A stretch of 36,230 bases of DNA, taken from Deltaproteobacteria bacterium. Lineage in GTDB: Bacteria > Desulfobacterota > Desulfarculia > Adiutricales > Adiutricaceae. How positions within the stretch are numbered: position 1 is the first letter of the stretch; each line of letters begins with the position of its first letter. A program made the translations under genes and the position numbers. The stretch covers positions 1-36,230 of the forward strand of contig JAIRTO010000236.1 of assembly GCA_031254895.1 (NCBI GenBank), given 5' to 3'. The notes under the pieces were generated by a model that was not told the DNA's origin, made no database searches, and saw only the letters and a list, made by a program, of their open reading frames with translations. Below, piece by piece: positions 2,612-36,230 of this stretch.

Positions 2612-3775
2612 ATGTTCTTATATTTCAGCGTTATTCTGACTGGATACGTGTTTCTCAGCTACCTTCTGCGTTTGCCTGTCAGCCGAACCGTCAAGTTCGG
2701 CCTCGTCGTCCTAACCTTCGCGTCCGCCGGGCGGATCATGATTATGCGCTCCATCTACGGCGGCCTGGGCGGCATAGAGGCGCCCAAGTGGCTCCTATTC
2801 TTCTCTTCTTTCATGCAAGATCTGATCATCATGCTCTTTCTCGTTTCCATCATAAGGGATCTTAGTTGGCTGCTTTCTTTTCTGGCCGGCAAGGGCATCG
2901 GCAAGACCATGCGGGTCTGGCTGAACGGCTCTACGGCCGCCTTGGTCATGTTGGGGCTGGCGGCGGCGATGGATCTGGCCGGTTTGGTCGGGGCGGCGCG
3001 GGTTCCGAACGTGCGGGAGAGGATGGTGACCATCGAGGATTGGCCGGAAGGTCTGGACGGGCTGAGGGTGGCCGTTTTGGCGGACATGCACATTAGCCGT
3101 TTCTTCGATCGCCCTTGGGTGGAACAGGTCGTGGAACGGACGATGGCCGAAAGACCGGAGATGATTTTATTGCCGGGGGACATGGTCGACGGCGAAACGG
3201 ATCTGCGGGCCGACGACGTGGCCCCTCTGGCCGCCTTGTCCGCTCCTTACGGCGTCTGGGCCTCAGTGGGCAACCACGAATACATTTCCCGGCTTCAACA
3301 ATGGCTGCCGGTTTTCGAAAAGTTGGGGCTCAAGATCCTCTACAACGCCCACGCCGTGGCGACGCCCAGAGGCATTCCCATAGTCGTGGCGGGACTGGCC
3401 GACCTGACGGCCTTAAGTTCCCGCTTCGACATGCCTGGCCCTGATTTGGCCTTGGCCTTGAAGGGCGCCCCGGAGGACGTTCCGGTGCTACTGATGGAGC
3501 ACCGTCCTGTCCGGGCGAAAGAAAACGCTCTTAATCCCGGCATAAAACTCCAGCTCTCCGGGCATACCCATGGCGGCATGATGCCTGTTTTGGCTTCATT
3601 CATCAAAAGAGCCAACGACGGTTATGTCTGCGGAGAGTACGACGTCGACGGGCTGAAGCTTTTCGTCCAGCCAGGTCTGGGGCTTTGGTCCGGTTTTCCC
3701 GTCAGGCTGTTCACTCCGAACGAGATAACCATTTTGACCATCCATGCCGCCGGAGACGGTCATGCAGGGGTTTGA
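2612..3775 (+). CDS. Membrane-anchored metallophosphoesterase (YkuE/YaeI-like)
   Basis: The 387-residue product has about four N-terminal membrane segments (roughly residues 1-20, 28-46, 60-90 and 105-128), then a calcineurin-like phosphoesterase domain. The metal-binding motifs appear in family order: DMH at 158-160, GDMVD at 189-193, GNHEY at 220-224, and SGHTHGG near residue 315. These ligate a two-metal centre that hydrolyses phosphomonoesters or diesters. The closest named relatives are membrane phosphodiesterases of the YkuE/YaeI type, some of which act on lipid A precursors or lipid-linked substrates; the substrate here is unknown. The ATG at 2612 has GGAG five bases upstream and opens directly on a hydrophobic segment, so I prefer it to upstream in-frame starts. 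A leader hairpin and corA follow. Confidence 0.85.
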   Translation: MFLYFSVILTGYVFLSYLLRLPVSRTVKFGLVVLTFASAGRIMIMRSIYGGLGGIEAPKWLLFFSSFMQDLIIMLFLVSIIRDLSWLLSFLAGKGIGKTMRVWLNGSTAALVMLGLAAAMDLAGLVGAARVPNVRERMVTIEDWPEGLDGLRVAVLADMHISRFFDRPWVEQVVERTMAERPEMILLPGDMVDGETDLRADDVAPLAALSAPYGVWASVGNHEYISRLQQWLPVFEKLGLKILYNAHAVATPRGIPIVVAGLADLTALSSRFDMPGPDLALALKGAPEDVPVLLMEHRPVRAKENALNPGIKLQLSGHTHGGMMPVLASFIKRANDGYVCGEYDVDGLKLFVQPGLGLWSGFPVRLFTPNEITILTIHAAGDGHAGV

Positions 3776-34575: not shown

Positions 34576-35098
34576 TCCCCTTGCCGCCTTGTAGCCTGGC
34601 GCCATGGCCGCCTGGCCCTCTTGACCTGCCGTTTGAATCCCTCTTGACCTCTTGGCTGGCGAGCGGGATATGCTCTTTTTGGTTCGGTCGGCTCGTTTCA
34701 TCTTCGGCTTCTTACGTAAAGACTTTACAAAAGGCTTCGCTAGAGCGGTTCGGCGACCGATTCAAGGTCTGCTTGAACAATTTGCGGCGCCCCGACCTAA
34801 AGTCAGTTTACAAACGCGTCTGCTTGAAGCCGAATTTCTTTGAAGCCGAATTTGTTTGAAGCAGAGTTTGCTTGGAGCTGCGTCCGTTTGAAGCTGGTTT
34901 CGCGGAGATTGGCGCGAATTGGCTTATTTCTGAGATAGCCGACAACCTTCGGCTGCGGGATGCCGCCGAAGGCGGTTCCGGCGACTTTATTTAGGAAAGG
35001 GAGGACTTTTAAGGCGGAGAGATTGAGAAATATCTTCGGATGCCGGCGGGATGAGGGAAAACGCGGCGCGTCGCAAAACGAAAAAATCGAAAATTGTG
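34576..35098. other. Intergenic region with a 16-bp degenerate tandem repeat
   Basis: No gene is recognised. At 34822-34897 a 16-bp unit (GTTTGAAGCCGAATTT and variants) is repeated about 4.6 times. Short frames over it are repetitive and not credible proteins. Confidence 0.5.
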
Positions 35099-35141: not shown

Positions 35142-35217
35142 GGTCCCATCGTCTAGTGGTCTAGGACACCGCCCTCTCACGGCGAAAACAGGGGTTCGAG
35201 TCCCCTTGGGACTACCA
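35142..35217 (+). tRNA. tRNA-Glu (anticodon CTC)
   Basis: The cloverleaf has acceptor stem GGTCCCA (35142-35148) with TGGGACT, anticodon loop CTCTCAC (anticodon CTC, Glu), T arm AGGGG-TTCGAGT-CCCCT, discriminator A and encoded CCA (35215-35217). Two oddities are a G-U first acceptor pair and a C-A mismatch at the outer end of the anticodon stem (27-43). The gene has its own promoter. Its CCA end runs directly into a truncated AAA-type gene, which is typical of a tRNA used as an integration site. Confidence 0.93.
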
Positions 35218-35359
35218 GCCTCAATGACGCTGACATCGGCAAAGACAAAATTGTTGTCATAGACGATCCGGTGTCGAGCATGGATAGCAGTGTCTTGTTC
35301 ATCGTCAGCACGCTTGTACGGGAGATGGTCGAGGTCTGCTATAACATTGTTGCGCCAGA
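35217..35359 (+). pseudogene. Remnant of an AAA-type ATPase gene (AAA_13/RloC-like C-terminal part)
   Basis: A frame beginning at the last base of the tRNA CCA reads SLNDADIGKDK, then IVVIDDPVSSMDSSVLFIVS and VREMVEVCYN. IDDPVSSMDS is the Walker B / D-loop of ABC-type ATPases of the AAA_13 group, which includes RloC/PrrC-like anticodon nucleases and related defence proteins. Only about 47 residues survive. The 5' part is missing at the tRNA junction and the 3' part is replaced by the repeat array of the next element. It is a gene scar, not a working protein. Confidence 0.7.
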
Positions 35360-35747
35360 GTTAAAATGTCGTCTGTTATCCAAAGTTAAAATGTCGCAAA
35401 TGACCTTAAGGACGAGGTTAAAATGTCGGTTTTTTTAGGTTAAGAACAATATTGAAATGTCACATTTCAGGTTTAGCGCATTGTTAAAATGTCATGTTTT
35501 TGCAACAATAAATTTTAAAAATACCTATCCTAAGCACACAGTTAAAATGTCACAGGGTTAAGGGCAACTTTAAAGTGTCATTATTTGTATACATTAAGCC
35601 CATTGTTAAAATGTCCTGAACTACACATAAGCGCAAAGTTAATTTATCATTGGCCATGTTCAACTTAAGCGCCAAGTTGAAATGTCGGTAACATTTAACC
35701 CCAAAGTTAAAATGACGGCCGGCACTTAACACCAAAGTTAAAATGTC
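35360..35747. repeat. Array of about 12 copies of an 11-bp motif upstream of a transposase
   Basis: The motif GTTAAAATGTC or a close variant begins at 35360, 35385, 35417, 35451, 35483, 35541, 35569, 35605, 35638, 35676, 35706 and 35737, spaced mostly 28-36 bp apart. One 58-bp interval may hide a decayed copy near 35512. Most copies are preceded 3-10 bp earlier by a TTAAG/TTAAC motif. All copies point the same way and lead to the transposase gene at 35800, so the array is probably the transposase-binding end of the element. Confidence 0.8.
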
Positions 35748-35799
35748 CTAAAATTCTCCTTTTGCCTTTCAATAGATCCCTCGCAAAGGAGAATTTCGC

Positions 35800-36230
35800 A
35801 TGAACCCAATTGACCGCAAACCAGACAATCACGCCAAGCGTCCAGACGATGACGTCAAACACAAAGACTCATCTAATGACACAGTGCAGGTAAAGGAGCC
35901 ACGTACCGGAGACCGTGAGTCAGACTTCCCCCCCCCAACTTTAACGATGATGAGGTCATAAACAAAAACTCACCTGATTGCAAGAACCAGCCAACCGACA
36001 AGAGTCCTGCTGAAAGAGCCGCCATCATCGGCAGGGTCGTCAACGAGAGAATGCCCCAAGCTTACGCAGCCAAGCTCTTGGGGCGCAACATCAGGACGGT
36101 CCAGAGGATGGCCGGCACGTACCGTGCCGAAGGCGCGGCCGGACTTGCCCATGGGCTCTGCGGCCGGCCTTCCAACAACAGCAGGCTGGCCCTCCAAAGG
36201 GACGTGGCCATCGCTCTCATACGGGACAAA
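35800..36230 (+). CDS. ISNCY-like transposase, N-terminal part, frame broken at a C run; continues beyond window
   Basis: A strong AAAGGAG site lies 8 nt before the ATG at 35800. The first frame gives 53 residues of charged sequence (MNPIDRKPDNHAKRPDDDV...) and stops at 35959-35961. From the nine-C run (35928-35936) another frame is open to the end of the window and encodes a helix-turn-helix with AAKLLGRNIRTVQRMAGTYR and then EGAAGLAHGLCGRPSNN, highly typical of ISNCY/ISDol1-type transposases. Joining the two frames needs a -1 slip or one extra C. This may be programmed slippage, a true inactivating mutation, or a base-calling error in the homopolymer. The catalytic DDE part lies right of the window. 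Confidence 0.78.

Follow-up and report, generated by a model that had tools for sequence, protein, structure and literature searches.

The window analysed here, i.e., the whole stretch of 36,230 nucleotides from a deltaproteobacterial contig, carries twelve copies of a short sequence motif, all in the same orientation, at the left end of an insertion sequence. It belongs to the IS1202 family as a variant form whose left end has been expanded one-sidedly, and this expansion is specific to one clade. Judging from sequence comparison, the motif copies are very probably the places where the element's own transposase binds, and on balance we favor the reading that the array is an expanded transposase-binding end that also represses or titrates its own transposase. 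We think that the main effect of the array would be to limit transposase output via the adjoining promoter, with end assembly as the chief rival.

The site array and the element that carries it

Eleven sites matching GTTAAAATGTC with at most two mismatches, seven of them exact, were found on the + strand between positions 35360 and 35747, and a twelfth, weaker copy, GTTAATTTATC, lies at 35638 on the same strand. The sites were identified by motif matching and are conserved relative to the spacers; their cores start at 35360, 35385, 35417, 35451, 35483, 35541, 35569, 35605, 35638 (the weak copy), 35676, 35706 and 35737. The sequence-only reading made before this analysis had reported about 12 motif copies in this segment, and they are indeed present at a density beyond that of shuffled sequences: the 36-kb window contains 23 matches of the GTTAAAATGTC type where 6.6 ± 2.3 are expected, a count reached in none of 100 shuffles. 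Strict PWM thresholds yield 10 sites in the window and 3 in a related element, L121; direct reading yields 12 and about 7, respectively. The repeated unit is longer than the 11-mer, with a consensus of about TTAAGcgCAA followed by AGTTAAAATGTC and a length of ~22–26 bp.

The exact 11-mer occurs 18 times in the 3.54-Mb genome (376 contigs), and 16 of these occurrences are located in ends of the window's element type. The window accounts for seven of them, a second copy on contig C239 for six, C364 for two and C75 for one; the remaining two of the 18 lie elsewhere. The reversed 11-mer, used as a control, has no occurrence genome-wide, and several other k-mer counts were set aside as unrelated tandem repeats or G+C-rich coding repeats. 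A search of a plasmid collection gave no match, and a DNA search of 60 relatives gave the genome's own copies, two places in one genome of the same genus, and two further ~25-bp matches at chance level. Elsewhere in the window, positions 34824–34871 consist of three tandem 16-bp units, TTGAAGCCGAATTTNT.

The element starts at position 35348 (TGTTGCGCC...), 12 bp before the first core motif. The start was placed there because the terminal sequence TGTTGCGCCAGAGTTAAAATGTC (35348–35370, + strand), which holds site 1, occurs without a mismatch at four places in the genome and is bordered there by different outer sequences. The insertion flank is a fragment of an AAA_13 ATPase gene at 35226–35347 on the + strand (Pfam PF13166, E = 6.6e-12), with tRNA-Glu directly on its 5' side (35142–35347 in all); this arrangement may be what is left of an island that had integrated at the tRNA gene. 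Downstream of the array, the 5' part of an ISNCY/IS1202-type transposase gene extends on the + strand from an ATG at 35800 to 36230, as identified by its family match, its HTH domains and the reading frame of the C239 copy, which is 90% identical to the element in the window. The best family for this partial transposase is NF033594 (ISNCY transposase, 42.9 bits), and the array had thus been correctly assigned to one end of an ISNCY-like element, namely the left one. Compared with the C239 copy, the gene has a frameshift located at nine consecutive C nucleotides (35928–35936), for which mutation, a slippage hot spot and an assembly error are candidate causes. The contig stops at 36230 inside the transposase gene, so that the right end and the catalytic domain with its catalytic residues fall past the end of the window; a search of the same genome for the right end using the conserved sequence GCAATTTCCGTGCC gave one match with 1 mismatch. 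Two small end remnants in this genome, one with two sites at a contig edge (L003, G000:C364, 1503–1550) and one with a single site flanked by a 13-bp direct repeat (L004, G000:C75, 1503–1525), look like scars of a lost element.

Array elements, ordinary relatives and the transposase

About ten elements of the same bacterial family have 5–13 left-end sites each. The complete element L036 is 1973 bp long (TGTCACCGC...GCGGTGACA) and consists of 13 left sites, one long open frame and two inverted right sites; L052 is an identical locus. A second complete element, L116, has a length of 2402 bp and a broken transposase gene, and both its boundaries are fixed because a perfect 15-bp duplication, TCCGAAATTCCGAAA, flanks the element outside the array. 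No target duplication is visible at L036, L121, L114 or L029. Further left ends are those of L121, L114, L118, L052, L122, L133 and L029. The motif differs among most elements (ATTAAAATGTCC, TTCAAATGTCC, ATAGAAATGTCC, GCAGTAGAAATTTCC, CAGCGAAAATGTCC and others), and the sites form the inner part of the terminal repeat: TGT...ACA ends with inverted repeats of ~24–26 bp are found in L036, L116, L121 and L114, and in the window at the left end only. The right ends carry two sites (three in L114 alone), which are closest to the left array of their own element, the true pairing being the best of 120 possible pairings of five elements. Each of the six right ends of the clade that could be read has a G+C-rich palindrome with 14–22 paired bases, situated between the right sites and the transposase gene (L036, 5251–5292; L115, about 3105–3146; also L116, L121, L114 and L029), which was detected in none of 19 ordinary relatives. 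The palindrome is often centred on GGTACC and is not followed by a clear T run, so that it may not be a terminator.

Ordinary relatives were collected from a scan of one genome per species and from 395 sampled genomes of the phylum, and they occur in many lineages. Those with both ends readable have, with few exceptions, two left sites 24–26 bp apart and two right sites ~25 bp apart, in line with the earlier remark that simple insertion sequences have one or two sites per end. Exact duplications of 15–17 bp are common at these elements and represent most of the cases with any duplication. The site array is absent from all ordinary relatives found in the two scans. The findings that the sequence-only reading had named as refuting it were not encountered: copies with the same motif either have the array or are tiny scars, and every array seen is accompanied by a related transposase, except where the contig ends.

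On transposase trees the array elements group together in a single clade (support 100/99). This clade holds without L116, which is a long branch with a broken gene, and a separate quick tree places the short pieces, the 69 residues from the window among them, within it (99). The simplest history suggested by these sequences is a single gain of the array from an ancestor with two sites at each end; we assume gain rather than loss because the two-plus-two arrangement is widespread, the root of the tree not being fixed by an outgroup. Arrays have persisted among elements whose transposases differ at more than half of their residues.

The transposases of L036 (317.8 bits) and of L115/L027 (347.6 bits) pass the 250-bit cut-off of NF033594, and the residues D, D and E, together with a Q seven residues after the E, are unchanged across 24 relatives, array elements among them. 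A structure model of the L036 transposase (mean pLDDT 82) comprises two N-terminal helical segments fitting two HTH domains, an RNase H-like core and a C-terminal beta domain. The model resembles IstA and TnsB most closely (E from 3e-15 to 3e-8), with modest whole-chain TM-scores of 0.34–0.45; in view of these matches, the earlier comparison with the multi-site ends of Tn7-type transposons is an apt one.

Site spacing, site conservation and the putative promoter

The spacings in the window are, in order, 25, 32, 34, 32, 58, 28, 36, 33, 38, 30 and 31 bp. The 62 spacings of at most 45 bp in 11 elements have a mean of 31.0 and a standard deviation of 3.5; the values thus cluster at 31 bp, and the statement that the spacing is mostly near 31 bp holds as an average. 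The outermost pair is 24–26 bp apart in nine of the 11 listed elements (in L114 and L116 the outer site escaped the strict scan) and the remaining spacings are mostly 27–38 bp. The outer pattern of 25, 32, 34 and 32 bp followed by a long gap is similar among diverged elements. The sequence-only reading had further proposed that the sites are spaced by whole helical turns and that bound proteins would face the same side of the DNA. A scan of phase coherence over periods of 8–14 bp has no peak near 10.5 bp; helical phasing was rejected since this period is not distinct from others, and, given the variable spacing as well, the same-face argument is unsupported.

When the element in the window is compared with its sister element L029 from a same-genus genome, the sites differ at 26 of 121 positions and the spacers at 132 of 264 (p = 1e-7), in an alignment that may favor the sites because they are the easiest anchors; the order of spacings is nearly identical in the two elements. 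Comparison with the C239 copy gives no such difference, the changes (4 of 121 positions in the sites, 11 of 261 in the spacers) being too few to distinguish the two. Exactly one ~31-bp unit is missing from the C239 copy, and units can therefore be gained or lost.

The last site (35737–35747) sits in the spacer of a predicted promoter, TTAACA-17-TAAAAT (35726–35754, + strand), found by a consensus scan, and the array thus overlaps the element's own putative promoter, as had been suspected. Because the site lies between the -35-like and -10-like boxes, a protein bound to it would cover the promoter. The same geometry recurs in ten leaders, i.e., those of the clade members with an intact leader and of the one-site remnant L014: a -10-like hexamer follows the last site by 0–3 bp (TATAAT in three leaders, TAAAAT and TACAAT in two each, and TATTAT, TATCAT and TATTCT in one each). 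Several elements have weak -35 boxes, the mean being 3.2 of 6 matches versus 2.6 at random. At or just past the -10 box lies the upstream arm of a leader inverted repeat, which in the window is a perfect 12-bp stem formed by AAATTCTCCTTT (35751–35762) and AAAGGAGAATTT (35785–35796), both given on the + strand, the downstream arm holding the AGGAG ribosome site at 35787–35791. A perfect stem of 6–12 bp pairs the early leader with the ribosome site in 8 of the 10 leaders; a leader hairpin occurs in 7 of 25 ordinary relatives, counts that are not independent, the elements being related.

Proposed function of the array and comparison with known systems

Each unit of ~22–26 bp most likely serves as a bipartite target of the transposase's two helix-turn-helix domains, as the motif common to both ends and the conservation of the sites indirectly suggest. 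Two outer sites per end are apparently enough for transposition across the family. The additional sites seem to be unneeded for cutting and joining, because the relatives manage with two at each end and the right ends of the array elements have two (once three); the expansion has taken place at the promoter end only. The extra left sites link the terminus to the putative transposase promoter. Once the array was occupied, transposase would switch off the promoter of its own gene, and a pool of transposase would also be retained on the array, so that output would be self-limited by dose; such a dose sensitivity fits the anatomy of the promoter. A transcript initiated at this promoter would be without part or all of the upstream arm of the inverted repeat, while a transcript from outside would carry the whole arm; the hairpin would then mask the ribosome site solely in transcripts that read through from outside and so guard against them.

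The preservation of the outer spacing pattern in diverged elements counts against this explanation, since it also suits a structural complex, and so do the weak -35 boxes, the leader hairpins of some ordinary relatives and the frameshifted, cut state of the copy in the window. In a mainly structural role of the array, many transposases would bind the left end for finding it by avidity and for building an asymmetric complex, the overlap with the promoter being incidental. The preserved spacing pattern and the TnsB/IstA-like predicted fold would agree with such a role, as would the precedents of Tn7-like, Mu and Hermes left ends, the last of which uses several subterminal repeats (PMC10368747). 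We regard this role as possible but doubtful, since two plus two sites serve the wider family and two serve the right end of the very same elements, and since the spacing is variable, by several bp and without a helical period, in contrast to VchCAST, where a change of a single bp matters (PMC10201428).

Self-limitation of the transposase has two weaker competitors. The absence of exactly one ~31-bp unit from the C239 copy is what slippage or unequal recombination could leave behind, and the extra sites might be a functionless, tolerated by-product of such events; this is improbable because the sites are better conserved than the spacers and because arrays have survived such extensive divergence of the transposases. 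It is more improbable still that the array lies outside the element as a host operator, replication iteron or partition-site cluster beside which an insertion sequence has landed. Spaced direct repeats upstream of a gene do resemble iterons and operator arrays, in form only, but the motif is the terminal repeat itself, is specific to the element, recurs at its right end and is nearly absent elsewhere in the genome, and in the complete element L116 the 15-bp target duplication is outside the array. Returning to self-limitation, we tentatively suggest a wider version of it: a clade of one-gene insertion sequences with composite left-end control, in which a copy-number-dependent sink or operator of 5–13 sites, a leader hairpin against read-through and an insulating G+C-rich palindrome at the right end would act jointly in one lineage, with the sites changing in step with the transposase.

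The IS1202 family (ISNCY; ISAjo2 and IS1202 groups) has NF033594-type DDE transposases with residues D, D, E and a Q at E+7 (PMC10132070), which the array elements have in common with it, as they do the TGT...ACA ends and the inner site repeated beside the terminal one. Target duplications in the family are 3–5, 15–17 or 24–29 bp long (PMC10132070), and the 15 bp of L116 resembles the long-TSD group, with its duplications of 15–17 bp. The ISAjo2 group, which inserts 5 bp from a dif-like site with a 5-bp duplication, was rejected given the 15-bp duplication of L116; no dif target was seen in flanks that were not searched systematically. Compared with the one additional inner site per end of the family, the right end is as expected but the left end has 5–13 sites instead of two, and the elements reach 1.9–2.4 kb and add a leader hairpin (in most) and the G+C-rich palindrome (at every readable right end). 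We filed the array element as a variant rather than a typical IS1202 member because the number of left sites departs from the family. Literature searches among open-licence papers for insertion sequences carrying arrays of sites did not turn up any IS1202-type end of this kind.

A Tn7-like transposon was rejected, L036 being 1973 bp with one long transposase frame and without TnsA, TnsC or target-selector genes. The TnsB-bound ends of Tn7 and CAST elements are alike in the TnsB-like predicted fold, several spaced sites and asymmetry, Tn7 having three left and four right sites (PMC13370975), but the array element has one gene, no TnsA, TnsC or TniQ, far more sites at one end and no helical periodicity. 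Unequal numbers of transposase sites at the two ends are also known from the eukaryotic elements Hermes, which locates its left end through several subterminal repeats (PMC10368747), and piggyBat, where an extra left-end site limits activity (PMC11707139), although these have unrelated transposases and hosts and far fewer sites.

In IS10 and IS50, an inverted repeat hides the ribosome site only in transcripts begun outside the element. The leader inverted repeat of the array elements could likewise hide the ribosome site in outside transcripts, but the families differ and the array elements combine the inverted repeat with a site array.

Ends with many transposase sites have mostly been considered in large transposons of the Tn7 and Mu kind and in certain eukaryotic elements. 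The one-gene family described here illustrates the change from two plus two sites to an asymmetric array within a single clade, with unmodified relatives as controls. It thereby allows testing whether extra sites help to assemble the end or to limit the element itself, as has been asked for piggyBat (PMC11707139). The diverged elements with different motifs also provide matched transposase–site pairs for studying specificity change. As a separate observation, L120 (G031:C109, 222–1447) contains about 35 repeats of the CCAAGCTTTCCC type, mostly every 20 bp, in the vicinity of a degenerate piece of an ISNCY transposase.
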